A stretch of 38,198 bases of DNA from Deltaproteobacteria bacterium (GCA_016186945.1 JACPKR010000015.1:1-38198); one strand, 5' to 3'. Counted from the stretch's first letter, positions 1 to 35,950 are shown. Notes: generated by a model not told the origin, from the sequence alone. Program-made: numbers and translations.

Positions 1-144
1 CAAAGAAAGATCAGTGAAATTTTTGAGTTCACCGGCTCCTCCACCTCTATTACTTTAGATGGAGATTTTTCGGCTGACTTCGCCTCATACTTTAATGTTG
101 GAGGAACCAGCTGCGCAGTTTCCTCCAAACCACCTCCTTGCTAG
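1..144 (+). CDS. C-terminal end of an unidentified protein, tail encoded by repeat PE1
   Basis: The first 144 bases are open from the window edge to a TAG stop (142-144) in frame 1, giving 47 residues. The first 32 or so (through ADFASYF) look like ordinary protein; the last 14 (GGTSCAVSSKPPPC) are translated from the PE1 core that begins near base 99. So the repeat either replaced or extended the original C-terminus. The fragment IFEFTG vaguely recalls the last helix of STAS-domain anti-sigma antagonists, but this is far too short to call. The rest of the gene lies outside the window. Confidence 0.45.
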   Translation, partial: QRKISEIFEFTGSSTSITLDGDFSADFASYFNVGGTSCAVSSKPPPC

Positions 145-178
145 GGGGCGCGCCGTTTCCTCCAAACCACCTCCTTGC
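99..178 (+). repeat. PE1 palindromic repeat, copy 1 (core plus partial second core)
   Basis: A complete PE1 core runs from 99 to 141: GGAGGAACC, a central CTGCGCAG palindrome, TTTCCTCC, then the tail AAACCACCTCCTTGC. After a short GC-rich spacer the right part (GTTTCCTCC to CTTGC) is repeated at 155-178. The terminal inverted repeats and G-rich left half seen in longer copies are absent. It lies between a truncated upstream gene and mnmA. Confidence 0.9.
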
Positions 179-214
179 TATTTTTCTGCAAAACCTTGCT
201 ATTTCTCTGCAAAA
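173..214 (+). repeat. 21-bp direct tandem duplication in the mnmA leader
   Basis: Two adjacent 21-bp units (173-193 and 194-214) begin CCTTGCTATTT and end TCTGCAAAA; they differ at one base. Each unit begins with the last bases of PE1 (CCTTGC), so the duplication includes the repeat boundary. The same arrangement is seen before purB. Confidence 0.9.
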
Positions 215-231
215 AGAGCTACAAGTGGCAG

Positions 232-1281
232 ATGAATAAAACCGTAGCCGTAGCCATGTCCGGAGGGGTGGATTCCTCCTTGTCAGCTTTGCTTTTGAAA
301 CAGCAAGGCTACAGAGTTATTGGCATGTTTATGCGGAACTGGGAGGAGGCGGACGCGTCGGGTCGCTGCACCAGCGCTCAGGATTACGATGACGTGTCGT
401 CGACCTGTGCCAAGTTGGGAATTCCGTTTTATGCCTTTAATTTCGCGAAAGAATACCGAGAGCAGGTGTTCGCCCGTTTTGTGGAAGAATACCAGAAAGG
501 CTACACCCCTAACCCTGACATTCTTTGTAACCGTGAGATAAAATTCAAGGTTTTCTTTGAGAAAGCTCTAAGTCTGGGGGCCGACCTGGTCGCCACGGGC
601 CATTACTGCCAGCTTGAGGACGGGAAGCTATTAAAAGGTAGGGATCCGGGAAAGGATCAGACCTACTTCCTTCATGCTATCGACGGGACGATCCTTGATC
701 GGGTCCTATTCCCTGTCGGGGGTCTTTTGAAAAGTGAAGTGCGCAGCCTGGCACGCGAGTTCGGCTTACCCACGCACGGGAAGAAAGACAGTACAGGCAT
801 TTGTTTTATCGGTGAACGACGGTTCCAGGAATTTTTAAGTCAATACATTCAAAGCAAGCGAGGGGAATTTTCCATGCTTGACGGAACTAAAGTGGGAACG
901 CATGAGGGGACGCCCTTCTACACGATAGGCCAGCGTAAACATCTTGGTTTAGGAGGACCGGGCGCACGTTGGTACGTGGTCAAGAAAGATCTTGCGCGCA
1001 ATATAGTTTATGTCGAGCGAGATCATGACCATCCCGAGTTATATGCTAGCGAGTTGACTGCTGACGAGCTGAGCTGGTTGTCTGGTTCTGCGCCTGTCTT
1101 CCCCCTTCGTTGCATGGCAAAGATACGCTACCGGCAAGAAGACCAAGCGTGCTTCGTGACAGAAACGTCTCAAGGCAAGTTGTCGGTACGCTTTCATACT
1201 CCCCAGCGTGCTATCGCAGTAGGGCAGTCGGTCGTTTTCTACGACGGGGACGTCTGCCTCGGAGGTGGAAGGATCTGTTAA
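232..1281 (+). CDS. mnmA: tRNA-specific 2-thiouridylase MnmA
   Basis: MnmA activates U34 of Lys, Glu and Gln tRNAs with ATP and replaces the 2-oxygen with sulfur, in the cytoplasm. The 349-residue product has the PP-loop SGGVDSS at residues 10-16, the catalytic Cys99 in NPDILCNREIKF, the second catalytic Cys191 in TGICFIG, and the conserved GHYCQL and YTIGQR segments; length is normal for the family (about 360). I chose ATG 232 because homologues start a few residues before the PP-loop. The frame stays open upstream to a TTG at 175, but that extension is encoded by the 21-bp tandem repeat. No strong Shine-Dalgarno is visible. The stop overlaps the stop of the convergent RRM gene by 4 bases. 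Confidence 0.96.
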   Translation: MNKTVAVAMSGGVDSSLSALLLKQQGYRVIGMFMRNWEEADASGRCTSAQDYDDVSSTCAKLGIPFYAFNFAKEYREQVFARFVEEYQKGYTPNPDILCNREIKFKVFFEKALSLGADLVATGHYCQLEDGKLLKGRDPGKDQTYFLHAIDGTILDRVLFPVGGLLKSEVRSLAREFGLPTHGKKDSTGICFIGERRFQEFLSQYIQSKRGEFSMLDGTKVGTHEGTPFYTIGQRKHLGLGGPGARWYVVKKDLARNIVYVERDHDHPELYASELTADELSWLSGSAPVFPLRCMAKIRYRQEDQACFVTETSQGKLSVRFHTPQRAIAVGQSVVFYDGDVCLGGGRIC

Positions 1282-1562
1282 CCTTCCCGCCCCCTTCGTC
1301 CGCCTCCACCTTTTTCGCGTTCGCTAGCTTCGTTGACGCGCAGCGGTCTGCCCTGTAAGTCTTTTCCATCCATTTCTGCGATTGCGTTGAGCGCGTCGTT
1401 CGCCTCTTCGAAGGTTACAAAACCAAACCCTTTTGAGCGATTAGTTTGTCGATCCATAATGACAACTACCTCAACGAGTTTGCCGAACTTTTTGAAGGCA
1501 TCGTTAAGGTCTTCGTCACGAACATTCCAGCTTAAATTTCCCACGAAAATTTTTTTAGCCAT
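1278..1562 (-). CDS. RRM-domain RNA-binding protein
   Basis: A 94-residue protein with a single RNA recognition motif: RNP2 IFVGNL at residues 5-10 and RNP1 KGFGFVTF at 44-51, followed by a short Gly/Arg-rich tail (GGGGRRGREG) typical of bacterial and cyanobacterial Rbp proteins. It probably binds single-stranded RNA, perhaps as an RNA chaperone; a specific target cannot be inferred. The start ATG is at 1562 with AGGATCGG upstream. A TATAAT -10 box lies on the same strand at 1599-1604, though I see no convincing -35. The gene converges on mnmA with a 4-base overlap of stop codons. Confidence 0.93.
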   Translation of the reverse strand: MAKKIFVGNLSWNVRDEDLNDAFKKFGKLVEVVVIMDRQTNRSKGFGFVTFEEANDALNAIAEMDGKDLQGRPLRVNEASEREKGGGGRRGREG

Positions 1563-1665
1563 ACATCCGATCCTATGAAGTGATAAGAAGCTTCCTCCAT
1601 TATAACACGCCTATCAGTGAAGATTTCCAGCCGTGTTTTCATAAACGACAAATTTGCAGATTTTC

Positions 1666-1695
1666 TTGACAGCCGCTGAACTTCCAGGCTTCAAT
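1666..1695 (+). promoter_or_regulatory. Candidate sigma-70 promoter of the protease gene
   Basis: A perfect -35 TTGACA (1666-1671) is followed after 18 bases by TTCAAT (1690-1695, four of six matches to TATAAT), about 55 bases before the protease start. Motif match only. Confidence 0.45.
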
Positions 1696-1749
1696 AAAAT
1701 AAATTGGCCAGACAACCAAATATCACAACAAAAGGAAAGGGAGTCCAAA

Positions 1750-2475
1750 ATGTCCTTCAAAAGTCGACTCAATGCCTTCTTGGTTGGCTTATGCCTCAGT
1801 GTCACCCTACTTGCTGTCGATGCAGGAGCGGCTTCAAGCTCAGACCGCATCATCGACGAAAACGATTTAGAAAAAATCTATGCTAAGACGGGCCCCATCG
1901 TCGAAGCCATCGGCCGCATGAATGTTGGCTGCACCGTAACCCATCTAGGGAACGGCATTGCGATTACTGCGGGCCACTGCTTCGTTAGCAGCCCCTTTCA
2001 CGGAATACGGTCCGCGGGCTCCTGTGAATCACGGCGCTACGACATCAAATGGGGAGTGACTTACACTCAAGATGCAGGTTACCTCGGCTCGAAATGCGTG
2101 AAAGTACTTGCGATAGAATTAAATCAGGAACGAGATTACGCCATCCTCCGCGTCAATCCCGTTCCTCCCCGCCACCTTAAGGTCGAATTTGAGCACGAGA
2201 TTGCCGTAGGTGACACGATTTCCATCTTCTCCCATCCGTCGATGCGCCCTCTGGAGTGGTCAAGCTACTGTGGTGTCGAAGGGTTCTTCGAGCAGTCCAA
2301 AGGCAATCAATTCCGCTATTCCTGTGATACCGAAGGCGGAAGTAGTGGGGCTTCCGTCCTGAACAAGGAAGAAGCTATAGTGGGCATACATAATTATTAT
2401 AATGCCGAGCTTAACCGTAATGGTGCGACTAAAATTTCAAGCACTCCGCTAAGAGTGTTTCTCTCTAACCTTTAA
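1750..2475 (+). CDS. Secreted trypsin-like serine protease (S1, V8-like)
   Basis: The 241-residue product starts with a basic n-region and hydrophobic stretch (residues 5-27) ending AGA-A, a good Sec signal peptide, so it is exported. The chymotrypsin-fold triad is readable: His76 in TAGHC, Asp129 in ERDYAIL, and Ser199 in GGSSGAS. Cysteines around His76 and near Ser199 could form disulfides. It resembles the S1B/V8-like group more than trypsin itself. ATG 1750 is preceded by AAAGGAAAGGGAG, a strong ribosome site; the frame is open further upstream but that part does not resemble protein. It is a monocistronic gene. Substrate unknown; secreted proteases of this type act in the periplasm or outside, possibly on host proteins. 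Confidence 0.88.
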   Translation: MSFKSRLNAFLVGLCLSVTLLAVDAGAASSSDRIIDENDLEKIYAKTGPIVEAIGRMNVGCTVTHLGNGIAITAGHCFVSSPFHGIRSAGSCESRRYDIKWGVTYTQDAGYLGSKCVKVLAIELNQERDYAILRVNPVPPRHLKVEFEHEIAVGDTISIFSHPSMRPLEWSSYCGVEGFFEQSKGNQFRYSCDTEGGSSGASVLNKEEAIVGIHNYYNAELNRNGATKISSTPLRVFLSNL

Positions 2476-2502
2476 CAAGGCCTGTGAGAAAAGGTTAAGA
2501 GA
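2462..2502 (+). terminator. Possible hairpin at the protease gene end
   Basis: TCTCTAACCTT (2462-2472, within the last codons) pairs with AAGGTTAAGAGA (2491-2502). No run of T follows, so it may be a stabilising stem rather than an intrinsic terminator. Confidence 0.35.
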
Positions 2503-2507
2503 ATTTC

Positions 2508-2613
2508 CGTCATTGCGAGCGAATGCGAAGCAATCCAGGCTGAAATTTGCTCCCCTTGTAAGCGACAAATAACCTGGATTGCTTCGTCGGGCTTCGCCCT
2601 TCTCGCAATGACG
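2508..2613. repeat. Palindromic intergenic repeat (long hairpin)
   Basis: The left arm (2508-2539) begins CGTCATTGCGAGC and ends GCAATCCAGG; the right arm (2573-2613) begins CCTGGATTGCTTCG and ends TCTCGCAATGACG. The arms are inverse complements apart from an extra GC-rich stretch in the right arm, with about 33 bases between. The CATTGCGAGCGAA...CAATCC sequence is like widely dispersed REP/MITE-type repeats seen in many bacterial genomes. Only one copy is in the window. Confidence 0.85.
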
Positions 2614-2832
2614 TTATTTTTTCTCATTCATTCTCATATGAACATACCCTGAGCCTTTAATTTCTAATCGCTTTCTTAATATTAATAGAATTGACTTATC
2701 CCCAACACCTGGGGATAACTCGGTCCGTCCAGTGACCAAAGCTCGGTGCTTAAAGGGCGGCTTCTGTTTGCACAATTTTTGTGCAAATGACGTTCTAATG
2801 AAATTCATGGGGGTGGAATTCTAATAATTTTA
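2614..2832. other. Non-coding stretch with three small inverted repeats
   Basis: No convincing gene. It holds TATCCCCA/TGGGGATA (2697-2704 and 2710-2717), TTTGCACAA/TTGTGCAAA (2767-2775 and 2779-2787), and CTAATAA/TTATTAG (2821-2827 and 2830-2836, spanning the amidohydrolase stop). A promoter-like TTGACT (2691-2696), 17-base gap, GATAAC (2714-2719) encloses the first inverted repeat; together with the second stem this could be a short transcript of about 70 bases, but that is speculation. Confidence 0.35.
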
Positions 2833-4092
2833 TTAGATGAGATTCATTTTCAATAAATTTCTAACGTTGTCGTAGAATACTGAGGCAGGGAACTTTTTTC
2901 CCGAGTAGGAGACCTTTCTCATAATGACCAAAGCTGCCGCGAGTGGATTGTGGTTGTAAATTTCCAGGGCCGCTTTATAAGTCCTGGAAAAGTCGGCCCA
3001 GCCGCCAAGGAGACCATGCAAATACATGGTCCAAAGCGAGGCTGCCAGCAGTGGCTTTGTTGCGGGAAGTGGGTAATCGCTTCCGTAGAGCAAGCGGGCA
3101 TGCACACTCTCTTCTTTCAAGATGGCTTGCAGGAACTTAGTCCTCATGGGTGCTGCGGTAAAACCTGAAATATCGGCCCATGTCTGTTGAGGAAACTCCT
3201 TCATCAGGTGAAGTACCCAGCTCACATTGTCGCTGCTTTTGCCTTTATATTCCGACTCTCCTTCTGACCCCACATGAGCGAAGACGATGCGAAGTGTGGG
3301 AAATTTCCTCAACCAGGCTTCATATGCCATCGGCGCCCCGAATCGGTTCTCGATCCCTCCGCCTTCCACGCTGCGCTCGTCACCGACGTGAGTGATGAGC
3401 GTGAACTGGTGTTTGGCTAGGAGTTCGAAAAAGCGCTCGCAACGCAAATCATCAGGTGGAATATGCATGGAATTGGGAAGAAGTTTCAGAAACCGCACGC
3501 CGTCCTTTTTAAGTGCTTCGAATGCTGTTTCTAAGTCTGCTTGGAAGGGGTTAAGTGACCCGACAGGGATAGCATCTCCAAGTTCCTTCGCCAGCCTTAG
3601 CATATACTCGTTACTAACTTCCAAGCCTGTGCGGTCCAGGCGTTTAGCCTGAGTCTCTGCATCGTAAGTCGCCGCAAACGCAAAGAGGAAGGGGGTGTAT
3701 GCTTTGCCGGGGAAGTTTCTGACGAGATCGAAAAGCCGGGCCTTGGCAGATTCGTCCGGCTCATCATCGTCCTCGGCCCCCATTGCGCTGAGGAGAATTT
3801 TAGCCTTCCAGGATTTTACAGGATGGTTCAAGGGGGAAAAGAGATCGGGATGTACATAACAACCGTTCTTTTTTTCTCTGCACACCACATGCACATGGGA
3901 GTCGATGACCCCCGGAAGGTCTTCGAGGGCTTCCGATAGAAATTCCTGCGCAAGGGGAGACAAAGGTGGGTTCTTCATCGGAGTTTCCCAAGAGGAACGC
4001 CCGGAAAGCGAGTCCCGCAGGTTCCAGGCTATACCCTCAGAGGCGACGATGAAGGAACTACACAGTACCATTGATGAAAACAAGAAATGCAT
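2833..4092 (-). CDS. Exported amidohydrolase-2 family protein
   Basis: A 419-residue TIM-barrel metal hydrolase or decarboxylase of the amidohydrolase-2 type (COG2159). Visible metal-site motifs: DSHVH (residues 64-68) after the first strand, KLLPNSMH mid-protein, ITHVGD, RIVFAHVG, and a late YGSDYP supplying the Asp ligand. The N-terminus (MHFLFSSMVLCSSFIVASEG) looks like a signal peptide, which is unusual for this mostly cytoplasmic family. ATG 4092 has AGGGAGAG just upstream; the frame continues upstream into repeat PE2 through a TTG at 4182, which I reject. PE2 ends 17 bases before the start, so the element now separates the gene from whatever promoter it had. Substrate unknown. Confidence 0.8.
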   Translation of the reverse strand: MHFLFSSMVLCSSFIVASEGIAWNLRDSLSGRSSWETPMKNPPLSPLAQEFLSEALEDLPGVIDSHVHVVCREKKNGCYVHPDLFSPLNHPVKSWKAKILLSAMGAEDDDEPDESAKARLFDLVRNFPGKAYTPFLFAFAATYDAETQAKRLDRTGLEVSNEYMLRLAKELGDAIPVGSLNPFQADLETAFEALKKDGVRFLKLLPNSMHIPPDDLRCERFFELLAKHQFTLITHVGDERSVEGGGIENRFGAPMAYEAWLRKFPTLRIVFAHVGSEGESEYKGKSSDNVSWVLHLMKEFPQQTWADISGFTAAPMRTKFLQAILKEESVHARLLYGSDYPLPATKPLLAASLWTMYLHGLLGGWADFSRTYKAALEIYNHNPLAAALVIMRKVSYSGKKFPASVFYDNVRNLLKMNLI

Positions 4093-4108
4093 GCAGTCTC
4101 TCCCTATG

Positions 4109-4274
4109 TATAGTCTTTGAGAAAAAGAATTTGTGGAGAGGACCTTTTTTGAAAAAAAGTTCCCCTCCACGCCTCCCCCCAAAAAACTTTAAATATTGAA
4201 GTTTTTAAAAAGGGGCTTGGGGAAAGACTTTTTTCAAAAAGTTTTTCCCCAAATTGATTATCTTGAATACTATA
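4109..4274. repeat. PE2 palindromic element, copy A (166 bp)
   Basis: Bounded by TATAGT and ACTATA, with arms that are imperfect inverse complements over about 28 bases. The centre contains AACTTTAAATATTGAAGTTT, a stem-loop. Copies B (16112) and C (17320) have the same length and order of blocks. Confidence 0.88.
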
Positions 4275-4328
4275 TCTTGCGAAGGGGACGTTCCCTCCCC
4301 TTCGCGCATCCCCTCCCTGATTGCTAGA

Positions 4329-5591
4329 CTAAGGTGTCAAGAAGTCTTCGCGGTCGACTCCCGTGCCGACACTTAGAATTCTACATCGGGAGAACTCTTC
4401 CAGCTTCAAGAGAAAGTCCCGCGCTGCGCCAGGAAGTTTAGAGAAGCTCCCTTGACGAGGAATATCTTGCTGCCAAGCTTTGAATGTTTCGTAGACGGGC
4501 TTGCATTCTTTCAAGACTTCACTGCTACTTGGGTATTCGTTAAGCACACCAAGCGTCGGGTGTTTATACGCGACGGCAACCTTGATAGTTTCGAGTCCGG
4601 AAAGAATGTCGAGTTTGTTCAAATAGACACCGTCGAGGCCATTGACTTCGTTTGCAAAGCGCATGGCGATGGCGTCAAACCACCCGCAGCGTCGGGGGCG
4701 TTTTGTTGTTGCCCCATATTCATTTCCTCGCTCTCGAAGCACTTGCCCGAGCTGATCATGAATTTCAGTGGGGAAGGGGCCTTCACCGACTCGGGTCGCA
4801 TAAACTTTTCCCACGCCTAAGATTCTGTCGATTTTCCGTGGATCAATCCCGAGGCTTACAGCCGCCTGACTTGCAAGAGTTGAGCTTGACGTCACGAAGG
4901 GGTAAGTCCCGTGGTTGATATCCAGCATGGTCCCTTGTGCTCCCTCGCACAGGACGTTTTGTCCTTCCTTGAGTCCTTTGCGAATCTTTTCTTCTGCAGG
5001 ACAAATGTAGTCTGCAATGAACGCGGCGCTCACCTCGAACTCTTTCCATAGGGCCGGGTTTTGATCATAGAATGTTTTAAACTCAGGGTCGGCTTCTTTT
5101 CGTTTGCTCAGCCATTCCTTCCTTTTCTCAGGCCGCGCCATTGTTTCCACCCGCATGCCGTTTCTCAGGTCGCGCTCGGCGTAGGTCGGGCCGATCCCAC
5201 GTTTCGTAGTCCCAATGGGGTTTTTCGCGCTTTCTTCAGACTTTGTATCGAGGTACACATGCCAGGGTGTGATCACATGGGCCAGAGTAGAAATCCACAA
5301 GCGCTCAGGAGTCACGGAGACATGCTCACGCAGATTTTTGATCTCCCGCATCAATACCCTCGGGTCAATGACGACACCCGACGTGAGGGCAATGATTTTT
5401 CCCTCATGCAGAACACCGTTCGGGAGAAGGTGGAATACATGCTTTTTCCCCCCCACATGGACCGTATGGCCAGCATTGTTCCCACCTTGGAAGCGACACA
5501 CAATGTCAATATCGTGAGCGATCTTATCCACCCACTTGCCTTTGCCCTCATCCCCCCACTGCGTTCCGATGATGACTGACAATTTTCCCAT
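4329..5591 (-). CDS. purA: Adenylosuccinate synthetase PurA
   Basis: PurA joins IMP and aspartate using GTP to make adenylosuccinate, the first committed step to AMP. The 420-residue protein has the family signatures: GTQWGDEGKGK at residues 9-19 with catalytic Asp14, GNNAGHTV with His42, GIGPTYAERD, EGAQGTMLDI, TRVGEGPFPTE, and TTKRPRRCGWFDA near the base-binding site; length matches the family (about 430). ATG 5591 is preceded by TAGGAGA. The frame has six more codons upstream from a TTG (5609) that I reject. It is transcribed away from purB, which encodes the next step, across a 166-base intergenic region holding PE1. Confidence 0.97.
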   Translation of the reverse strand: MGKLSVIIGTQWGDEGKGKWVDKIAHDIDIVCRFQGGNNAGHTVHVGGKKHVFHLLPNGVLHEGKIIALTSGVVIDPRVLMREIKNLREHVSVTPERLWISTLAHVITPWHVYLDTKSEESAKNPIGTTKRGIGPTYAERDLRNGMRVETMARPEKRKEWLSKRKEADPEFKTFYDQNPALWKEFEVSAAFIADYICPAEEKIRKGLKEGQNVLCEGAQGTMLDINHGTYPFVTSSSTLASQAAVSLGIDPRKIDRILGVGKVYATRVGEGPFPTEIHDQLGQVLRERGNEYGATTKRPRRCGWFDAIAMRFANEVNGLDGVYLNKLDILSGLETIKVAVAYKHPTLGVLNEYPSSSEVLKECKPVYETFKAWQQDIPRQGSFSKLPGAARDFLLKLEEFSRCRILSVGTGVDREDFLTP

Positions 5592-5639
5592 GAATTTTCT
5601 CCTACCCAACGATTAGGTGCCTACAATACAATACCAAAC

Positions 5640-5709
5640 GTGATGCGTAAACCGCTTGGGGCTTCTTGGCGGAACCAGCTGCGCAGTTTCCTCCAAACCA
5701 CCTCCTTGC
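5640..5709 (+). repeat. PE1 repeat, copy 2 (internally deleted)
   Basis: The left terminus (GTGATGCGTAAACCGCTTGGGGC) in shortened form joins directly to TTCTTGGCGGAACCAGC and the rest of the core to CTCCTTGC. The G-rich middle (GGGAGAGG to CCCCCAAGGG in full copies) is absent. It sits between the divergent purA and purB genes. Confidence 0.9.
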
Positions 5710-5757
5710 ATAAGGAAGTAACTTGCATAAGGAAGTAACTTGCATAAGGAAGTAACC
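5706..5757 (+). promoter_or_regulatory. Triple 17-bp tandem repeat carrying the purB ribosome site three times
   Basis: TTGCATAAGGAAGTAAC occurs three times without a gap (5706-5722, 5723-5739, 5740-5756), followed by C and the purB ATG. Each unit contains AAGGAAG; only the last is at a proper distance from the ATG. The first unit overlaps the TTGC end of PE1. Confidence 0.93.
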
Positions 5758-7152: not shown

Positions 7153-7169
7153 CTTTTCAGAAGGAAAAA

Positions 7170-7306
7170 GTAATGCGTAAGCCACTTGGGGCAAATAGGG
7201 AGAGGGGGGTTTGGGGGGGCGAGGGAACCGTCGCTCCCCCAAGGCATTTCTTGGAGGAACCAGCTGCGCAGTTTCCTCCAAACCACCCCCTTGCCCCAAG
7301 TGGCTT
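7170..7306 (+). repeat. PE1 repeat, copy 3 (near full length), fused to xthA
   Basis: Starts GTAATGCGTAAGCC and contains the 14-base terminal inverted repeats AAGCCACTTGGGGC (7179-7192) and GCCCCAAGTGGCTT (7293-7306). Between them are the G-rich block, the CGTCGCTCCCCCAAGG block and the core. It lies between the purB stop and the xthA coding part. Confidence 0.93.
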
Positions 7307-7310
7307 TGTC

Positions 7311-10375: not shown

Positions 10376-10452
10376 CGGGACACTACCTATGTATAGGGTG
10401 GTGCCAAATATCTTCTCTTTCAAGAAAACTCCCAACTGAACTGCTGATATTT

Positions 10453-10481
10453 GATATATCTTAGGTTATGAACTATTGCAA
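10453..10481 (-). promoter_or_regulatory. Candidate promoter of the GTP cyclohydrolase-like gene
   Basis: On the minus strand TTGCAA (10476-10481) and TATATC (10453-10458) are separated by exactly 17 bases. The -35-like hexamer overlaps the end of the PE1 copy, so the repeat would supply part of the promoter. Motif match only, four of six bases in each box. Confidence 0.35.
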
Positions 10482-10588
10482 GGAGGTGGTTTGGAGGAAA
10501 CTGCGCAGCTGGTTCCTCCCCCCATTGTTGCAAGGAGGTGGTTTGGAGGAAACTGCGCAGCTGGTTCCTCCAAGAAAGCCCTTGGCAA
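10478..10588 (-). repeat. PE1 repeats, copies 4 and 5 in tandem, reverse orientation
   Basis: Two cores read GCAAGGAGGTGGTTTGGAGG on the plus strand, at 10478-10519 and 10530-10571, separated by CCCCATTGTT-type spacer. The second continues CCAAGAAAGCCCTTGG up to the parC stop. Both lack terminal inverted repeats. They fill most of the gap between parC and the GTP cyclohydrolase-like gene. Confidence 0.92.
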
Positions 10589-13093
10589 TTAGAGGGAGAC
10601 CGATCTTACGGGTTTCCTTGCCAGTCGATTTCCTGCTGCATGGATGCCCTTGACTTCAATCAACTCGGAAATACGGAAGGTTTCTTCAGACTGAGCAGTG
10701 TTACGATTGCCCTTGTAGTGAACGGTCACTCTTGGGTCTTCCCGCAGTGTAGCGACGAGAACCTTAGCGCTACTGCGCAGGGGGACGAAATCATAACGCC
10801 CGCGTTCAAATTCCCCCACCGCAACACGTTTCACAAAATGGTCATCTTTTTCTTCGTCAAAATACACGACTGACAAAATCTGCGATGGATCGAAGAACTG
10901 GATTTCCAGAAGATCGGGAGAAAAGTGATGGTCCCAGTCAAAGGGGAAAATTTCAAAACTTCCCGACTTGTATACAGCGAGGAGAGATTCTTCTCCTGAG
11001 TATTTTCCCAGGTAAATGCCTTCGCCCTCCTTGTTCAACTTGTTTTTCTCTCTGTCGAACCAAACCCTTTGCGCAGCGAGGGTGGAAGCTCCCTGGAGGA
11101 CTTGCACAACTTTGTCTACCTTTTCATGGGTGATCACGGTACCGATTAAAGTTCGTGGTTTGATGGCGAGGGTTGCAAAGTCCAGGTGAAGTTTCCCGGG
11201 TCCCTTAAGAAGTCCGTTATCTTTCAAGAGAACTTGGACCTTCTCCTGTTCACCGTTGGGATTCTTGCTGAAATAGAGAACGCGACTGCCTTTGGTTCCG
11301 CGCGTGAGGTCGTAGAGGCGATTTCTAGTGTAAGACATGAGGTCGAAGCGTTTTCCAAAGACCGGCCCTTCACGTCCGTCGCGGTAGACCAAGTGGAAGA
11401 TACAACGCTCGCTAGGTTTAAAAAAGTCGGCGTAGAGTACGTTTTTCCCCACGTATGTTTTTTCGTTTGCCCTATGGACTTTGAGTTCTCCTGCTTGTGA
11501 GAGAGTCAAGATTTCTGTGAACTCCGAGCATTCCCCCAGCAGTTCTCCATCTTTAATGTTGGTACCGACGAAGCCTTCCTTTCGGTCGATGTAGACTTTC
11601 TGATCCGCAACGGCAACTTTCGCTGCCTTCACTTGGGCAAAGGTAGCGATCTCAGTTTTGCGGGGGAAGGATTTGCCATATGTTTTCAGCAGGTCTTTGA
11701 AATAGGCTATGCAGAAAGCTGTCAAGCTTGCGAGGTTCTTTTCGACTTCTTCCAATTTCGCTTTTAGTTCGGCAATAAGGGCCTTGTTCTTCTCCTGGTC
11801 GAACTTGGCAATGCGTTTGATTTTCAGCTCCAGGATTTTCAGAACGTCATCTTGTGTCAGTTCACGCACCAATTGTTCGTGGAAAGCTTTCAACGCTTTT
11901 TCGGTTGTGCGCAACACATGTTCCCAGCTCTCTGATGTCTCGATTTTTCGGTAGATGCGTTCTTCGACGAAGATTTGCTCAAGTGTGGCCAGGTGCAACT
12001 TTTCTCTAAGGACGTGTCGTTCGTGTTCGAGTTCGAGTTTTAGAATTTGTCTCGTTCGGTTTGTAGCTCTTGTGAGGAGTTCGCTCACAGAACAGAAGAG
12101 GGGTCTTCCTTCCGCGATAACGCAGCAGTTAGGGGAGATGGACGTTTCACAGTCGGTGAAGGCGAAGAGACCTGCGATGACTTGCTCGGGAGACATACCT
12201 GCGGCGAGGTGGATGAGGATTTCCACATCTTTTGCTGTGTTATCTTCGATCTTCTTTATCTTGATCTTGCCTTTATCGTTTGCCGACAGGATGGAGTCGA
12301 TCAAGCTTGTTGTGGTGGTGCCGTAGGGGATTTCTCGAATGACGATCTGTTTGCTGTTGAGGACTTCGATTTTCGCACGGACTTTGATTTTCCCGCCCCG
12401 TGCTCCGTCGCTATATTCACTGAAGTCGGCAAGTCCCCCGCTGGGAAAGTCCGGAAGGAGTTTGGGCTTATACCCACGCAGAACGGCTATCGACTCTTTG
12501 ACAAGTTCGCAAAAATTATGGGGGAGGATCTTAGTTGCCAGTCCCACGGCAATTCCTTCTGCTCCCTGGAAAAGGAGGAGGGGGAATTTTACCGGCAGCG
12601 CGATCGGCTCCTTCGAGCGCCCATCGTAGGAGTTCTGCCACGGGGTGATGTGCTCGCTGAAGACTACACTTCTGGCGAAGGGGGTAAGCCGAGCTTCAAT
12701 ATAGCGAGCCGCAGCAGCCTGGTCTCCCGTGAGTGGGTTACCCCAGTTGCCTTGCATGTCGATGAGCAGACCTTTCTGCGCAAGTTTCACGAGGGCATCG
12801 CAGATCGCCATGTCTCCGTGGGGGTGGTAACGCATCGTATGCCCGATAACGTTCGCTGCTTTGTTGAAACGCCCGTCGTCCATTTCCCAGAGGGAGTGGA
12901 GGATGCGGCGTTGGACGGGTTTCAGTCCGTCTTCCACTTCAGGGATAGCTCGGTCGAGGATGACGTAGCTGGCGTAATCAAGAAACCAGCGTTTATACAT
13001 CTGCGCGACGCCTTTGTCTGAGGGTTCCGTTCCTTCTTCGTCTCCCTCTCCAGCGGGAGTCCCCTCCTCTCTGAATTTCAATTCGTCTGTCAT
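10589..13093 (-). CDS. parC: DNA topoisomerase IV subunit A (ParC/GyrA type)
   Basis: The breaking-rejoining subunit of a type IIA topoisomerase, 834 residues. The winged-helix/tower core is clear: [54 protein letters not shown] with catalytic Tyr131, then [16 protein letters not shown] long coiled-coil follows ([21 protein letters not shown] onward). The C-terminal half (about 480-800) is the DNA-wrapping beta-pinwheel-like region, without a clear GyrA box. The coiled-coil segment with [12 protein letters not shown] is typical of the Bacteroidetes/Chlamydiae type. The ATG overlaps the parE TGA (ATGA), so the two are translationally coupled and the holoenzyme is ParC2ParE2. Confidence 0.93.
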
Positions 13094-14985: not shown

Positions 14986-15111
14986 AAAGGGAGAGGGGGG
15001 TTTGGGGGGGCGAGGGAACCGTCGCTCCCCCAAGGGATTTCTTGGAGGAACCAGCTGCGCAGTTTCCTCCAAACCACCTCCTTGCCACATGCGGCTTCCG
15101 CATTACTATAA
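14986..15111 (+). repeat. PE1 repeat, copy 6 (left terminus missing)
   Basis: Begins in the G-rich block (GGGAGAGGGGGG), includes the CCGTCGCTCCCCCAAGGG block and core, and ends with GGCTTCCGCATTAC. This right end mirrors the GTAATGCG(T)AAGCC left end of copies 3 and 7, so the complete element has longer terminal inverted repeats than any one copy retains. A second promoter-like pair (TTGCCA at 15082, TATAAG at 15107, 19-base gap) lies at its right end. Confidence 0.92.
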
Positions 15112-16111: not shown

Positions 16112-16278
16112 TATAGTATTTGGGAAAAAGAATTTGTGGAGAGTACCTTTTTTGAAAAAAAGTTCCCCTCCACGCCTCCCCCCAAAAAACTTCAGGTATT
16201 GAAGTTTTTGAAAAGGGGCTTGGGGAAATAACTTTTTTCAAAAAGTTTTTCCCAAAACTGATTATCTTGAACATTATA
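16112..16278. repeat. PE2 palindromic element, copy B (167 bp)
   Basis: Starts TATAGTATTTGGGAAAAAG and ends CTTGAACATTATA. The centre pairs AAAACTTCAGG with TTGAAGTTTT. It separates the oxidoreductase terminator from fur, ending 40 bases before the fur ATG, so any fur promoter is either inside the element or in that short gap. Confidence 0.9.
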
Positions 16279-16318
16279 GAATACTCCGATTTGCCATTGA
16301 ATACTTTTGAGGGCTTTT

Positions 16319-17319: not shown

Positions 17320-17485
17320 TATAGTATTTGGGAAAAAGAATTTGTGGAGAGGACCTTTTTTGAAAAAAAGTTCCCCTCCACACCTCCCCCCAAAAAACTT
17401 CAAATACTGAAGTTTTTGAAAAGGGGGTTGGGGAAATAACTTTTCTCAAAAAGTTTGCCCCAAATTGATTATCTTGAACACTATA
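17320..17485. repeat. PE2 palindromic element, copy C (166 bp)
   Basis: Bounded by TATAGT and ACTATA. The centre AAAAACTTCA (17393-17402), loop AATAC, TGAAGTTTTT (17408-17417) is a perfect ten-base stem flanked by A and T runs, so it could terminate transcription in both directions. It lies between the convergent ogt and the Gfo/Idh gene, and a further TGACCTAG/CTAGGTCA inverted repeat follows (17497-17504, 17530-17537). Confidence 0.92.
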
Positions 17486-17529
17486 GATTGACTGCATGAC
17501 CTAGGGAGCCTTCGGGTCAGTCTCAAATG

Positions 17530-24835: not shown

Positions 24836-24842
24836 AGTAGGC

Positions 24843-29462: not shown

Positions 29463-29642
29463 TGATCCCTTCCTCAGTTTTTTGAACTTTCGGGAAGTGT
29501 AACATCGCCGCTTGATCTGTTCAAAGAAATTTGGATATTCCTAATACTAATTTTGAAACTTGCTATCTTTCACTAGAAACTAAAATTGAATTAGTGAATA
29601 ATTTCAAGCGGTGCTTTCTCGGGAATATCTTTGGGGGAACCA

Positions 29643-30638
29643 ATGACCTACCTTACTCACAAGGACAAAATTTTTATTGCCGGTCATAAAGGCCTTGTAG
29701 GAAGTGCGATCATGCGAAATTTAGAGAGCAAAGGCTACACAAATATCGTAACAAAAGCTAGAAATGAACTCGATTTACTTGATCAACATGCAGTCAAAGA
29801 TTTTTACCGTCGTGAGAAACCTTCGGTTGTTTTTATTGCCGCTGCTAAGGTAGGTGGAATTTACGCCAACAGTCACTTTAGAGCTGAATTTATCTATGAA
29901 AATCTACAAATTCAGAACAATCTAATCTGGGGTGCCTATGAGTTTGATGTCCATCGACTTGTGTTTCTTGGAAGTAGCTGCATTTATCCGAAGGAAGCTC
30001 CTCAACCGATTCGAGAAAACTGTCTCCTAACAAGTCCGTTAGAATACACCAACAGGCCATATGCCGTCGCTAAAATTGCAGGAATTGAACTTGTCAGTTC
30101 GTTGAGGGCTCAATTTAAGAGAGACTTCTTTGCGGCAATGCCGACAAATCTATACGGTCCCCATGACAATTTTCATCCCAAAACTTCACATGTTTTGCCG
30201 GCCTTGCTAAGGAGACTGGTTGAAGCTAAGGAAAATGATGAAAAGAGAATAACCGTTTGGGGCACTGGCCGCCCCCAGAGAGAATTCTTGTATTCAGATG
30301 ATTGCGCTGATGCTCTTGTCCATATGGCTGAAAAAATATCTGAATCAGATTTTGACAAAATTCTCAATACTCCCCCTTACTGGTGTAGCGTGAATGTAGG
30401 CGGCGGTGATGAGGTCTCCATTCGCGAATTGGCAGAAATGATTGCTAAAGAGGTTGAATTTAGTGGCAAGCTGGAGTTTGATCCGTCCCAGCCCGATGGG
30501 ACGATGCGAAAGTTGATGGATTCCAGCCTTCTAGTCAAGTGGGGTTGGAAACCGAAAATAACTCTTGAACAAGGAATTAGAGATACAATAAATTGGTATA
30601 AGAAAAATAGGAACCGGTATCAAGTTGCTGCTTGTTGA
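29643..30638 (+). CDS. fcl: GDP-L-fucose synthase
   Basis: Converts GDP-4-keto-6-deoxymannose to GDP-L-fucose by 3,5-epimerisation and NADPH reduction. The 331-residue protein has GHKGLVG (14-20), SSCIYP with Ser112 and the epimerase Cys113, and Tyr140-x3-Lys144; NLYGPHDNFHP and the REFLYSDDCADA block are characteristic. Length is normal. ATG 29643 follows GGGGGAA. Gmd, the preceding pathway enzyme, is usually next to fcl; here it is separated and on the other strand, 2.8 kb away. Confidence 0.95.
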   Translation: MTYLTHKDKIFIAGHKGLVGSAIMRNLESKGYTNIVTKARNELDLLDQHAVKDFYRREKPSVVFIAAAKVGGIYANSHFRAEFIYENLQIQNNLIWGAYEFDVHRLVFLGSSCIYPKEAPQPIRENCLLTSPLEYTNRPYAVAKIAGIELVSSLRAQFKRDFFAAMPTNLYGPHDNFHPKTSHVLPALLRRLVEAKENDEKRITVWGTGRPQREFLYSDDCADALVHMAEKISESDFDKILNTPPYWCSVNVGGGDEVSIRELAEMIAKEVEFSGKLEFDPSQPDGTMRKLMDSSLLVKWGWKPKITLEQGIRDTINWYKKNRNRYQVAAC

Positions 30639-30656
30639 TGAAAATTCAATCAGGAC

Positions 30657-30676
30657 TAGATCAATAAAATGATCTA
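30657..30676 (+). terminator. Possible hairpin after fcl
   Basis: TAGATCA (30657-30663), loop ATAAAA, TGATCTA (30670-30676). A perfect seven-base stem but no T-run. Confidence 0.35.
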
Positions 30677-30723
30677 ACAACGAAATATATCTACTCAGGG
30701 TTTCGAGGCGTCAAATTAGCCCT

Positions 30724-31710
30724 TTGATTACAATATTCTCTACTCCAAGACCTTTTCTAGGTCATTTCAAAATTATCCAGCAAAATGCAATCAGTAGTTG
30801 GTTAAGCCTGGGTGACCAAATACAAATCATACTAATTGAAGATGAGCAGTCCACAACGGGATCCGTTGCGAATACTTATGGTATTGAGTGTATCTCTAAT
30901 GTTTCCAAAAATACGGATGGTGTTCTTTTCTTAGACGATATTTTTAGGAAAGTCAGGAAACAAGCGCGGGGGAAAGTTCTAGCTCATATCAACGCTGACA
31001 TCATTCTATTAGATGACTTTATGGAATCGGTCAAATTAATCCAGAAATCGGTCTTCTACCTTACGGGACAACGATGGAATCTTGACATTGTCGAATGTCT
31101 TGACTTCAAGCACCCTTCAATTCTGGATTTTTTGAAAGAAGAAGTAAATCGAAATGGGAAACTGCACCCAATTACTGGAATGGACTATTGGGTTTTCCCT
31201 GCCTCGTGGAATTTCGAAATGCCCCAATTCCTGGTTGGTCGGCCAGCGGTTGACAATTGGTTGATACAACAAGCACTTCAGAATCATATTCCAGTAATCG
31301 ATTGTACAACGAAAATCACTTGTATTCATCAAAACCATGAGCGAGGCGAGGCTCTTGGCCTGAGAAAATATGCTGATGAGGAAATTTACAATAGGCGATT
31401 ATCGAAGTCGCATAAATTCTCAGAGAGTAGCCGTGTCTACTACTTCACCCTTCATGACGCAACTCATCGGCTAGACAAAAATGGCAATTGCCTTAAAATT
31501 CCACTTACGCTCACGAAAATACTACGGTACAGGGATGACCCAGAGATACTACGTGGTAGCATTTTTATTTGGAGACTGCTATTTTATCCGATAAATTGGT
31601 TTCTTGGTTCATTGATCTACAGAAAATACAAGTCTATGCTACGTCTATTATTTCCATACAGTATATTGAAAAATCTACCGGTTGCTAGAGAGTATAAAGA
31701 TTCAATTTAG
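30724..31710 (+). CDS. Glycosyltransferase-like protein (GT-A-type, MITIF family)
   Basis: A 328-residue protein beginning MITIFSTPRPFLGHFKIIQQNAISSW, which resembles a family of putative glycosyltransferases opening MITIFTxPKPF. It has IILIEDE early and AHINADIILLDDFMES, where INAD is an acidic metal-site candidate, and GMDYWVFP and RPAVDNWL, common in these proteins. The start is a TTG at 30724; no ATG gives a family-like N-terminus. A hydrophobic stretch near residue 280 (FIWRLLFYPINWFLGSLI) suggests membrane association. Function not known. Confidence 0.6.
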   Translation: MITIFSTPRPFLGHFKIIQQNAISSWLSLGDQIQIILIEDEQSTTGSVANTYGIECISNVSKNTDGVLFLDDIFRKVRKQARGKVLAHINADIILLDDFMESVKLIQKSVFYLTGQRWNLDIVECLDFKHPSILDFLKEEVNRNGKLHPITGMDYWVFPASWNFEMPQFLVGRPAVDNWLIQQALQNHIPVIDCTTKITCIHQNHERGEALGLRKYADEEIYNRRLSKSHKFSESSRVYYFTLHDATHRLDKNGNCLKIPLTLTKILRYRDDPEILRGSIFIWRLLFYPINWFLGSLIYRKYKSMLRLLFPYSILKNLPVAREYKDSI

Positions 31711-31741
31711 GAAAAAATTCATCTCAATATAGTTAACACAT

Positions 31742-32944
31742 ATGCGGATTGCTCTTTTCACTCCAAACTTATCAGAGAGTAGAGGTGGTGCTTCAACCCT
31801 CGAGCATGATCTTTACTACCACTTTTTAAAACGTAGCTCGGGTTCAAATCATGAATTCCTTGTCTACACGAATAACCCCCAAGGACTTGAGGTAGGGACA
31901 ATGCCTCAAAATGTGAGGCTAGTTGAATTCAAAGCCAATAGTCTTAGGTGGCAATTATTATCGCAATTCATTAGAGGAGCCCAGGATTGGCTTTTGCCTT
32001 TCAGACTGGTCAACTGCTATTCCTGGTTCGAAAAACACCTTCGCAGCGAACAAATTCAATTTGTATACTATCTTACTAACTCTTTTGTCTCTTGTAACAT
32101 GCCTTACCTTTACACCGTATTAGATATCGAGATGCTCGTGACCCCTGGTTTTGAAGAATATACGATTAATGGCGAATTCGAGAGACGGCATCGGTTTTAT
32201 AACGAGATCGTCAAAAAGGCAACTTATGTTATTGCAGCAAATAGAACGGGTAAGGAGCAGCTAATCAAACATTATTGCTTGGAAGAAGATAGGATTTTGC
32301 CCCTTCCTTATGCTGCTCCCAGATTTGCCCGTGAGGGGGCTTCAATTAAAAAGGATACGAAGATCTTAACGAAATATAATATAAGAAGTGATTTCGTGTA
32401 CTACCCTGCTAAGATCTATCCTCATAAGAATCATGTTGGTGTGCTCTATGGGCTGGCAAGGCTAAAGGAAAAATATTCAATAGAACTTGATGCCGTGTTC
32501 AGTGGCCCCGACGGGGGAAATATGGAGCATGTCAGTTCCGTTGCTAAGCGTCTTGGAATGCAAAATCGAGTCCATTTTCTTGGATTGGTTCCCATGGATG
32601 ACGTCGTCCAACTCTACAAAAACGCAAAAGCTATGAGCTTTCTAAGTTTATGCGGACCTTCAAATCTCCCTTCCCTCGAAGCATTAGCCCTTAGCTGCCC
32701 AGTCATCAATTCCGATGTGCCTGGCGCAAGGGAGGAACTCGAAGGTTGTGCCGTTCTAGTGAACCCCTTTAAGCCTGATGAATATGCAGACGCAATAATG
32801 CGACTACTGACTGATGAATGCTTCAGGAACAAGTTGATTGAAAATGGAATTAGGCGAATAGATCGTTGGACAATGTCCGACTACGTTGATGAAATATTCA
32901 AGTGTTTTGACCTCTATGAACAAGTCAGGCGCTGTTGGCCCTAG
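31742..32944 (+). CDS. Glycosyltransferase family 4
   Basis: A 400-residue GT-B retaining glycosyltransferase. N-terminal RIALFTPNLSESRGGASTLEHDL; mid-protein YPAKIYPHKNH and GPDGGNMEHV; C-terminal VHFLGLVPMDDVVQLYKNAKAMSFLSLCGPSNLPSLEALALSCPVI, where SNLPSLEAL stands for the EGFGLxxxE-type donor site. Donor sugar not predictable. No strong ribosome site is visible. It is 31 bases after the previous gene and likely co-transcribed with it and fcl. Confidence 0.85.
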   Translation: MRIALFTPNLSESRGGASTLEHDLYYHFLKRSSGSNHEFLVYTNNPQGLEVGTMPQNVRLVEFKANSLRWQLLSQFIRGAQDWLLPFRLVNCYSWFEKHLRSEQIQFVYYLTNSFVSCNMPYLYTVLDIEMLVTPGFEEYTINGEFERRHRFYNEIVKKATYVIAANRTGKEQLIKHYCLEEDRILPLPYAAPRFAREGASIKKDTKILTKYNIRSDFVYYPAKIYPHKNHVGVLYGLARLKEKYSIELDAVFSGPDGGNMEHVSSVAKRLGMQNRVHFLGLVPMDDVVQLYKNAKAMSFLSLCGPSNLPSLEALALSCPVINSDVPGAREELEGCAVLVNPFKPDEYADAIMRLLTDECFRNKLIENGIRRIDRWTMSDYVDEIFKCFDLYEQVRRCWP

Positions 32945-32957
32945 ACGTTGAGTGCCC

Positions 32958-34262
32958 CTAATTTTCTTGCACTTGAGAAATCTGACCGCTTTTTTCAGTA
33001 GGCAGAAGATCCCGAAAGCAATGCCCAAATTGGTCATTAAACACTTTTCTATACCAGGAAAATTCTCTAAACTGCAAGTACCTCTCCCTGGTGGCTAGAG
33101 ATATAAACCACTGATCGTAGGTCAATGTCTCAATGTCAGGGTACATTTTTTTTGCAAAAAAAAGGACTGTCGAGTATGCAGCTACCAATATTTTTGGACG
33201 AAGGAATGGCAGGTAGAATTCTGTTGGATAGTTGTGCTTTGACAAATCAGACAAATATACGATTTTGAAGAGCTTTGAAAGACGATCAAGGCGAGCGATC
33301 CCCTCATCAGAATAGTCATCAAAAAAAAGCTTACTTTTAAAGACAAGTGTTGAGATTCCTTTCGATTGAAAATAGGGAACAAGCTCGCTAAGAAGGTAGT
33401 CTTCGAATGCATTGAAAACCTTCAATACATCATTTCTAGAGAATTCGTACCAAGGTTTAGGATACGGAAACATAGTCAATATCAAACCTGATCTTTCAGG
33501 AATTGAGCATTCAAACAAATGATTGTTTCGACCAATCTCTTCGGTACGATCGAGAAGCAAAGAGGGTGACAGTAGCTCGATTTTGGTATTTGAAGGGTTT
33601 CCTGCCTTAATTTCTTGCCCTAGCAAAGACAGACTCTTCTTAAATCTTGTTTCAAAGTTTGCGGTAAAATAAAGGAAGATCTTGTCAACACTTTTGAAAT
33701 AAAATCGTTTAAGCCTCCTAACGGGTTGCCTAATATACTTCGGCACCCTACCAAGACGTCCCCTTGTTTGGTCTCGCAAAACTCCCTCAAAAAGGGAATT
33801 TTTTATATCTGGAAGTCCATGTTCAAAAGATACCCCAGTGGCATTCTTACATAAGTAGAAAAAATGCCCGTCCAAGCTTCCCTTCCTGCACCAAATTTCT
33901 TCAACATCCCTTGGGTCGACCTTCAAGGACTCGAGAACCTGTCTAATTTTTATAAGCTCAAGCCCCCGAAGTTTTCGTTCCTTTAATATAGAGAAAAGGC
34001 TAAAATAGTTGCAATCTCCAGTGAAATAGCGGGGAGCCATGCAATCCCCCCATTTATCCGAATAAGGTGCTAGAACAGATTTAGTTGCTTCAAGATGAAG
34101 CCGTTTCTTTTCTTCGCAAGAAGTGGAAAAGTTGAATGGTAAATCAAGTCCAACATATAATGTAACGTTTTTCAACTTCCTTAAGCAGCTATCGAGTAGG
34201 TAACTCGACATAAATAGCGCCGGTAATGGATCATCCGCAAGAATCAATCTAACTTTTTGCAT
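32958..34262 (-). CDS. Conserved protein, possible sialyltransferase-like glycosyltransferase
   Basis: A 434-residue protein I do not recognise firmly. It has SFEHGLPDI in the middle and VAAYSTVLFFAKKMYPDI near residue 385, which recalls the SSALxNAKxxF segment of GT52/polysialyltransferase-like enzymes, and TLYVGLDLPF near the N-terminus. There are no signal peptide or membrane segments. Ten bases separate it from the epimerase gene upstream, so the two form an operon. The C-terminal 20 residues look unstructured. Confidence 0.45.
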   Translation of the reverse strand: MQKVRLILADDPLPALFMSSYLLDSCLRKLKNVTLYVGLDLPFNFSTSCEEKKRLHLEATKSVLAPYSDKWGDCMAPRYFTGDCNYFSLFSILKERKLRGLELIKIRQVLESLKVDPRDVEEIWCRKGSLDGHFFYLCKNATGVSFEHGLPDIKNSLFEGVLRDQTRGRLGRVPKYIRQPVRRLKRFYFKSVDKIFLYFTANFETRFKKSLSLLGQEIKAGNPSNTKIELLSPSLLLDRTEEIGRNNHLFECSIPERSGLILTMFPYPKPWYEFSRNDVLKVFNAFEDYLLSELVPYFQSKGISTLVFKSKLFFDDYSDEGIARLDRLSKLFKIVYLSDLSKHNYPTEFYLPFLRPKILVAAYSTVLFFAKKMYPDIETLTYDQWFISLATRERYLQFREFSWYRKVFNDQFGHCFRDLLPTEKSGQISQVQEN

Positions 34263-34272
34263 GCCTAACTAC

Positions 34273-35223
34273 CTATCGATTTGATAAAAGGAAATCGTCT
34301 ATTCGCATTTTCAACCCTTCAGAAATCGGTATCCGCGGTCGCCAATTGGTTTTTTCCGAAAATTTACGACAATCGAGCAGACAGTGAATCTGTTCTCCAG
34401 GTCTGTCCTCTAAATAAATTGGGTTAGCTGATTTCCCAAGATGCTCAGCAATCATTCTGTAAATGCTATTTAAAGATGTTTGTACTCCGGTTCCAATGTT
34501 ATATATATCAAAGTAACGTCCTCCTCCTAGACTCAAACACCTGACGCAGGCCTCCACAACATCTGAAACGAATATATAGTCTCTTGTCTTTGATCCATCA
34601 CCGTAAATCTCAGCCTGATTATCGCTGCTAAGCTTGGCAATGTAGTCTGACATTGCCCCCATTTTTTGACGAGGACCATAGACCGTTCCGAACCGAAGGA
34701 CAACCCCTGATATACCAAATGCTTCGCTATAAAATCGCAAATAATTTTCAACCGCAAATTTAGAAATCGCATAAGGCGCGATTGGATCAACAGTCTCAGA
34801 TTCTGGCGTCGGCATAACAGCCGCATTGCCATATATAAATTCTGATGAGGCGAAAATAATGATAGGATGATCCCTCAAATCCTTCAATGCCTGAAAGAGC
34901 CTAATTGAACCCGCTATGCTGTCCATTTCAACGTCAGGAGCGTTAACAGACATTGGAACATTGGTATTAAAAGCAAGGTGAAATACTACGTTTGGTCTGA
35001 AGTCAAAAACAAAACGTTCAATTTCCACACTGTTAACATTTGCTTCTAGAAAATCGATTCGATGATGAATGTTGTCTAGTGACCCTGAGCTGAGATTGTC
35101 GATGACCGCCACCTCAGCTCCTTCCTTCACCAATCTGTCCAAGAGATGAGAACCGATAAATCCAGCACCACCGGTAACTAAAGCGCGTAAACCTGAACCA
35201 TTTACTCCTTGCTGCAGCCGCAT
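34273..35223 (-). CDS. NAD-dependent epimerase/dehydratase (GalE-like)
   Basis: A 316-residue extended SDR. TGGAGFIG (17-24) is the NAD site; then VVFHLAFNT, SSEFIYGN supplying Ser, YAISKFAVENYLRFY with the Tyr-x3-Lys pair, LRFGTVYGPRQ, and GDGSKTRDYIFVSDVV, typical of UDP-glucose 4-epimerase-like enzymes. Substrate likely a UDP- or CDP-hexose for the glycan; the residues around the active site do not decide it. ATG 35223 follows AGGGAGAAAG, a strong site. First gene of the short minus-strand operon with 32958-34262. Confidence 0.82.
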   Translation of the reverse strand: MRLQQGVNGSGLRALVTGGAGFIGSHLLDRLVKEGAEVAVIDNLSSGSLDNIHHRIDFLEANVNSVEIERFVFDFRPNVVFHLAFNTNVPMSVNAPDVEMDSIAGSIRLFQALKDLRDHPIIIFASSEFIYGNAAVMPTPESETVDPIAPYAISKFAVENYLRFYSEAFGISGVVLRFGTVYGPRQKMGAMSDYIAKLSSDNQAEIYGDGSKTRDYIFVSDVVEACVRCLSLGGGRYFDIYNIGTGVQTSLNSIYRMIAEHLGKSANPIYLEDRPGEQIHCLLDCRKFSEKTNWRPRIPISEGLKMRIDDFLLSNR

Positions 35224-35443
35224 CTTTCTCCCTGATAGAAAAACCTATTTGTTTCGTGAAAATCAAGTATAGGTCTAACATTGTCCCAGCGCCACCTGAT
35301 TTATCAGGTCCACAACGTTGAGTAAGGTTAAAGTTTTGGGTTGGAGTCTATCCGGCACTTGAAGATAGACATATGCAATTTGTCTGTGACAAAATCTATA
35401 CAGGTGTCGATCTTATCAAAATAGCTGATTGAAAGATGGGCTT
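35224..35443. promoter_or_regulatory. Divergent intergenic region between epimerase and cytidylyltransferase remnant
   Basis: No gene. ACCTGAT (35294-35300), TT, ATCAGGT (35303-35309) is a perfect inverted repeat that could be an operator or stem, and TTGTC/GACAA lies near 35380. No convincing sigma-70 pair is seen. Confidence 0.35.
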
Positions 35444-35950
35444 ATGAAGGTAATAATTTTGGCTGGTGGATTGGAACTAGAATGTCCGAAGAAACTTCAG
35501 TTATTCCAAAACCAGTGGTTCCGATCGGAAATAGGCCTATATTATGGCACATCATGAAACACTATGGTCATTATGGATTTAACGAATTTGTCGTGCTTTT
35601 GGGCTACAAGGGAAACTACATTAAAAATTTCTTTTTGAACTATTATACATCTCAAAGGTAATGCGTAAGCCACTTGGGGCAAATAGGGAGAGGGGGGTTT
35701 GGGGGGGCGAGGGAACCGTCGCTCCCCCAAGGGATTTCTTGGAGGAACCAGCTGCGCAGTTTCCTCCAAACCACCTCCTTGCCCCAAGTGGCTTATCAGA
35801 TCCATGGAGTATTACGTTACTGGAAACCGGGCTGGATTCACTGACTGGCAGCCGAATTAAATTGGCCGAGAAGGTCATTAACAATCAACCTTTTATGTTA
35901 ACGTATGGAGACGGTGTCTCTGACATCAATATTCCTGCTTTGATAGAATG
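35444..35950 (+). pseudogene. Glucose-1-phosphate cytidylyltransferase remnant (rfbF-like)
   Basis: RfbF makes CDP-glucose, the entry to 3,6-dideoxyhexoses and related branched sugars. Starts MKVIILAGGL, then one base is missing near 35473, throwing the frame out; after it the conserved sequence goes on: SVIPKPVVPIGNRP, ILWHIMKHYGHYGFNEF, LLGYKGNYIKNFFLNYYTSQ. Repeat PE1 then interrupts (35658-35795), with a stop at its left end and about 20 codons of the gene absent. Afterwards come SDPWSITLLETGLDSLTG and QPFMLTYGDGVSDINIPALIE before the gene stops at a junction with an ISL3 remnant. About 110 of the usual 257 C-terminal residues are gone. Three independent lesions make it non-functional. 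Confidence 0.9.
35658..35795 (+). repeat. PE1 repeat, copy 7 (near full length), inside rfbF
   Basis: Begins GTAATGCGTAAGCC and has perfect 15-base terminal inverted repeats TAAGCCACTTGGGGC (35666-35680) and GCCCCAAGTGGCTTA (35781-35795). It is almost identical to copy 3, from GGGAGAGG through CTCCCCCAAGGG to the core. The reading frame of its ATG (35661) continues into the surviving rfbF sequence. Confidence 0.95.

Follow-up and report, generated by a model that had tools for sequence, protein, structure and literature searches.

Within a 38,198-nucleotide stretch of a Deltaproteobacteria genome (GCA_016186945.1 JACPKR010000015.1:1-38198; hereafter the window), a palindromic core, termed PE1, occurs seven times, with one additional fragment. 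What kind of element is PE1, and is it, as the original prediction proposed, a sequence kept open in all reading frames that is tolerated within genes? Using a 27-mer of the core with up to 3 mismatches allowed, we found 395 matches in the genome (2.66 Mb in 76 contigs; assembly 91% complete) and 0 for the reversed-pattern control; the terminal inverted repeats (TIRs) gave 221 matches, and their reversed control 0. The number of cores is thus far in excess of chance. PE1 had been described correctly as palindromic, dispersed, mobile and bounded by inverted ends, and the seven cores and the fragment lie where they had been placed, exactly or within 1-3 bases. The genome is not of high GC content, as had been supposed: GC is 46% in the window and 49% in the first 400-kb sample. 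The copy statistics below come from about 815-819 kb of genome stretches (31%).

The 44-nt core hairpin unit at 98..141 (plus strand) consists of a purine strand GGAGGAA (100-106), a conserved loop with the pair G110:C116, the Watson-Crick partner TTCCTCC (120-126), a candidate third strand CCTCCTT (133-139) and a constant suffix CCTTGC (136-141). On the same strand, a 5'-truncated tandem duplicate of the 3' part of the unit (pyrimidine strand and tail) lies at 153..178 and has the same TTGC end. The purA-purB gap contains an internally deleted copy (5640..5709, plus strand), in which a left TIR-like end (5640-5664) is fused to the core (5666-5709), followed by tandem flank duplications. Near-complete copies, each with a left TIR, a G-rich arm, a core and a truncated right TIR, are found on the plus strand in the purB-xth gap (7170..7303; TIR 7170-7194, core 7251-7294) and at 35658..35791 (TIR 35658-35682, core 35739-35782), and a left-truncated copy (14988..15106, plus strand) consists of the G-rich arm, the core (15042-15085) and a right TIR variant (15082-15106). 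Two core units form a tandem pair on the minus strand, the first at 10530..10573 and the second at 10478..10521, in the gap between a ribA-like gene and a topoisomerase IV/gyrase A gene. The protein encoded by the latter (10589-13093) has its nearest counterparts in the named collection, at about 50%, among proteins of Bacteroidota type. Complete copies with TIRs had been expected in the window; TIRs are present, but neither of the two TIR-bearing full-type copies (7170 and 35658) has an intact right end, and intact 146-bp copies with target duplications are located elsewhere in the genome. The window also contains another dispersed repeat, direct and 171 nt long, that is unrelated to PE1 (4109-4279, 16112-16282 and 17320-17490; 78-89% identity to the reference copy), and a palindromic repeat, CCCGCGGTCAAGCCGCGGGATGACAGG, lies beside some PE1 copies (L161 near 13200, L175 and L046).

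Complete PE1 copies are 146 bp long with 25-bp inverted ends (GTAATGCGTAAGCC...), the TIR pairs being spaced 143-148 bp, and they are 90% identical on average (median 92%). The 8-bp flanks of TIR-paired copies matched at 7 or more of 8 bases in 19 of 55 cases, compared to 0.4 expected from shuffled pairings; overall, target duplications were found at 24 of 54 copies (8 bp in 19, 9 bp in 5). At the RfbA site, the frame before insertion can be reconstructed: without the element and one of the 9-bp repeats it ends in ...ESQETGIL, whereas the present gene ends in ...ESQET* at a TAA from the TIR. A search for empty sites among the other repeats of the genome yielded nothing convincing beyond the target duplications. 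With terminal inverted repeats and target-site duplications, the complete 146-bp copies are miniature transposons (MITEs). As a transposon, PE1 is an ordinary MITE with no known parent. Like prokaryotic MITEs in general (PMC10969869), it is shorter than 200 bp, has terminal inverted repeats and target duplications, reaches a high copy number and carries no gene; unlike them, it holds a hairpin unit that other genera have independently of this MITE, and no parent insertion sequence was found. The same review mentions neither IS66 nor triplexes. The PE1 TIR was not found in the 55 relatives of the same class that were searched, and PE1 had no matches in viral contigs (exact 21-mer) or in plasmids and phages (146-bp query). 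One candidate for an autonomous element, an interval of 2158 bp between TIRs (C23:14264-16421), proved to be two separate copies flanking host genes.

Which enzyme moved these copies? Members of the IS66 family have ends beginning with GTAA and generate 8-bp target duplications. PE1 ends also begin with GTAA (GTAATGCG...), and the duplications are mostly of 8 bp. Models of the IS66 DDE and IS66 TnpB proteins gave 0 matches in the 91% complete assembly, in which DDE_Tnp_1 and Transposase_mut were represented by fragments only; with these models, no intact transposase with PE1 ends was found. IS66 ends of relatives (GTAAGCG...) are unlike those of PE1, and an IS66 C-terminal remnant is present in the window at 37901-37978. 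In this assembly, IS66, IS4/5-type and IS256 transposases were absent or present only as fragments without matching ends and were set aside as parents. As a source of the hairpin, IS200/IS605 ends were also rejected: their right ends are structured differently, and the one hairpin close to such an end sits just outside it. The GTAA termini and the 8-bp duplication suggest an enzyme of IS66 type that has since been lost or is missing from the assembly. The contig end (37000-38198) is a patchwork of mobile-element remains, including, besides the IS66 fragment, a DDE_Tnp_1 fragment (38073-38198) and a stretch that by eye resembles the end of a maturase from a group II intron.

About half of the copies lack the left arm; their left limits are scattered at consensus positions 65-82 and their right limits at 125-135. 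The own genome contains 419 matches to the loop pattern AACCANCTGCGNAGTT; G005 and G007, which represent two further genera of the same family, contain 137 and 112, and the other genomes, including G003, of the same genus as the genome of the window, are at background level. Among 58 genomes, a stricter exact pattern was found only in the own genome, G005 and G007. In G007 the units are single or in inverted pairs, without TIRs, and many begin a few bases after a stop codon; in G005 many units bound fold-back elements of 250-490 bp. The G005 fold-backs (L253-L266) have inverted triplex-hairpin copies at their bounds and T-rich outer edges, and tailless solo palindromes at the same places could be deletion products. 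The core, which occurs without these ends in two other genera, appears to be a separate, older unit carried by the MITE. The BOX elements of pneumococcus are likewise modular, built of separable boxes; to our knowledge, their sequence and ends are unrelated to PE1.

To what, then, does the core owe its sequence? The loop (AACCAxCTGCGx'AGTT) is conserved, with an inner pair that varies among G:C, U:A, A:U and C:G, and the stem is a variable purine/pyrimidine duplex of 2-8 bp. Based on 49 distinct 27-mers, 95.9% of stem cells were paired; double-changed cells numbered 70 (18 in shuffles), the covariation score was 0.40 (0.11 in shuffles), and the covariation was lost when the partner strand was slid. 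The tail 3' of the hairpin is the parallel complement, or mirror, of the purine strand of the stem, as in the stem/tail pairs GGGAGA/CCCTCT, GAGGGA/CTCCCT, GAGAGA/CTCTCT, GGGA/CCCT, G2/C2, G4/C4 and G5/C5, and the length of the C run in the tail tracks that of the G run in the stem. Read in parallel, 163 of 185 tail positions matched, versus 122 of 185 in antiparallel; for non-palindromic tracts, the numbers were 83 and 42 of 97 (permutation p=5e-5, common descent not being modelled). In 40 further search-listed places, fetched after the rule had been derived, 50 of 59 positions followed it (p=2e-4, again with common descent not modelled), including GGGGA/CCCCT and G5/C5. In both sets, the candidate third strand stands in Hoogsteen order relative to the purine strand. 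Among the 42 later-fetched units, 22 had no tail, most of these in G005. The commonest core of the own genome has a tail CCACC in the constant register, with A for T in mid-tail and hence one mismatch; a perfect triplex match, CCTCCTT on GGAGGAA, is obtained only when the register is moved by three.

The agreement between stem and tail might be a by-product of low complexity (C/T runs) and shared descent, with no third strand involved. Most tracts are indeed short G runs, and all-G tracts, of which there are many, cannot separate parallel from antiparallel order; moreover, the p-values ignore phylogeny. Against this, the ordered tracts GGGAGA, GAGGGA, GAGAGA and GGGA matched at 22 of 22 bases in parallel order and not in antiparallel order, and tail length follows tract length, so that we consider a mere by-product unlikely. 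Mirror repeats cannot be produced by inverted or direct duplication. The fold-back triplex is the known structure that requires mirror repeats; in its Y.R-Y form with C+, an acidic pH is needed. The stem-tail rule reads as the signature of an intrastrand triplex hairpin, into which the unit would fold. The three strands covary in three genera, and on balance we lean, by a modest degree, to the reading that selection acts on the intramolecular triple helix as such, the unit having been acquired by the transposon.

Taken as a whole, PE1 is probably two-layered: a MITE mobilised in trans and an older hairpin unit with a triplex-capable tail. The complete copies would be non-autonomous, a transposase of the cut-and-paste type acting in trans on the 25-bp ends. 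One single strand could fold back into a Y.R-Y triplex and the complementary strand into an R.R-Y triplex. The likely result would be a folded DNA knot on strands exposed during replication, at which the polymerase may stall or slip; such a knot would account for duplication of the 3' part only, for decay into core-only copies and possibly for recognition by a mobility factor. Extra 5'-truncated copies of the 3' part were found downstream of 23 of 150 cores and upstream of 3, and nearly all end at the same TTGC; this one-sidedness is consistent with slippage at a folded strand, which may be the mechanism. A G-quadruplex motif is present in the left arm of 46 of 53 complete copies, and the whole sample contains 107 such motifs. 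In the window, the left arm at 35686-35713 reads GGG-AGA-GGGGGG-TTT-GGGGGGG-CGA-GGG, a motif with 3-nt loops.

According to our crude, home-made gene calls, 104 of 150 cores fall between genes, where random placement would put 9.7%, and the remainder lie at called gene ends. The calls are often over-extended at the start codon, which explains many of the gene-end cores: the Xth frame called at 7173, for example, crosses the element, yet similarity to the Xth family begins only at residue 47, past the element. It had been proposed that copies could be tolerated inside genes, but none of the 150 sampled cores is in mid-gene, and 12 of 43 neighbouring gene ends stop at the TAA of a TIR, with one case of read-through. 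The stop ends at TIR base 4 in eight of the 12 and at base 11 in the other four; one was counted twice, leaving about 11 genes. In gaps between tandem genes, PE1 sits towards the stop codon (Wilcoxon p=0.003 with complete copies, 0.012 with half copies), and the complete copies point either way equally often (10:10). Insertions would survive mainly just 3' of stop codons, where the TAA in the ends could close an invaded frame; purifying selection probably underlies this placement.

The same placement might mean that the hairpin acts as RNA, as a 3'-UTR or terminator-like structure for mRNA 3' ends, whose tail would form an RNA triplex or serve as a protein-binding site. Copies do lie close to stop codons, and the G007 units that start just past a stop fit such a role. 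However, a functional RNA is hard to reconcile with the 10:10 orientation relative to the gene, no U-run follows the hairpin, and Rfam contains no family matching the core unit. Since post-stop placement is also expected from purifying selection against insertion in genes and promoters, we regard an RNA function as doubtful.

A further possibility, slightly less probable still, is that the core is a REP/REPIN sequence spread by a RAYT, a single-strand tyrosine transposase, with the tail a mere polypyrimidine flank. PE1 resembles REP/REPIN sequences, as these are described in PMC2817692 and PMC3116915, in being an extragenic palindrome, single or in inverted pairs, on the 3' side of genes. It is also short and of high copy number, lies close to stop codons and forms inverted pairs in G007, a genome with several RAYT-like genes. 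Yet no RAYT is present in the own genome, where copies are most numerous and only TnpA of the IS200 type occurs, and the RAYT genes of relatives are flanked by GCACGGAGC repeats rather than the PE1 hairpin. REP superfamilies have a GTAG or CGTC tag at one end (PMC3733652); PE1, whose unit spans TTGG...CCTTGC, has no such tag and differs also in its mirror-repeat tail, a tail mirroring the stem not being predicted by REP. The RAYT-like genes, present in several relatives (L238-L243 and L249-L251), are flanked by tandem repeats with GCACGGAGC / GCTCCGTGC, possibly RAYT-associated repeats of another kind.

As for the reading frames, the 44-bp core does lack stop codons in all six, but this carries little weight, since six open frames are also seen in 14.9% of shuffles that preserve dinucleotides, in 2.2% of mononucleotide shuffles and in 7.9% of genomic 44-mers matched for GC. 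Because the copies share one origin, their openness counts as one observation. Four frames, rather than the predicted five, are open in the 134-bp form (4.1% of dinucleotide shuffles reach four), and the complete 146-bp element has only two, an ordinary value (32% of shuffles), because at each end GTAATGCGTAAG puts a TAA into two of the three frames. Stop-free frames no more frequent than in shuffled sequences were to count against the original prediction, and the observed openness, near the shuffle expectation, comes close to that. That PE1, like the Rickettsia palindromic elements (RPEs), was selected for all-frame openness to sit within genes is highly improbable: it can point to a six-frame-open core in 140 of 150 sampled copies, whereas openness is near expectation, the ends supply stop codons and close four of six frames of the complete element, and the placement data, with gene interiors avoided, refute it. 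Both kinds of element are palindromic, about 150 bp long and present in many copies, but RPEs integrate in frame within genes (PMC10969869) and PE1 does not.

The nearest known likeness to a triplex-capable repeat is offered by BoxC/PIT/TM_ECO of E. coli and other bacteria, intrastrand-triplex repeats of the form 5'-CCCTCNCCCN3-6GGGNGAGGGN3GGGNGAGGG-3' (PMC4666352, citing Hoyne et al. 2000), which are intergenic, show no strand bias, sometimes form inverted pairs and are linked to instability and deletions (PMC4666352). The architecture of PE1 is similar, a short intergenic repeat with one triplex-capable strand, found in both orientations and at times in inverted pairs, and associated with instability. 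The two are not homologous and differ in sequence; PE1 varies in its stem and conserves a long loop, BoxC the reverse. TM_ECO was reported without association to mobile elements (PMC4666352), whereas the PE1 unit resides inside a transposon, and for PE1 a three-way covariation is visible across genera. The ITxF search rule (stem 6-15, loops 1-6 nt; PMC4666352) does not capture PE1, with its hairpin loop of more than 6 nt and many stems of less than 6.

Triplex-capable bacterial repeats were thus already known, but the known motif varies too little to have shown whether the triplex is needed by cells or elements. In PE1 the stem varies naturally and the tail follows, so that the rule is directly testable by tail swaps. 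Within one uncultured bacterial family, one short hairpin repeat exists as single units, as inverted pairs, as large fold-backs and as the passenger of a MITE.
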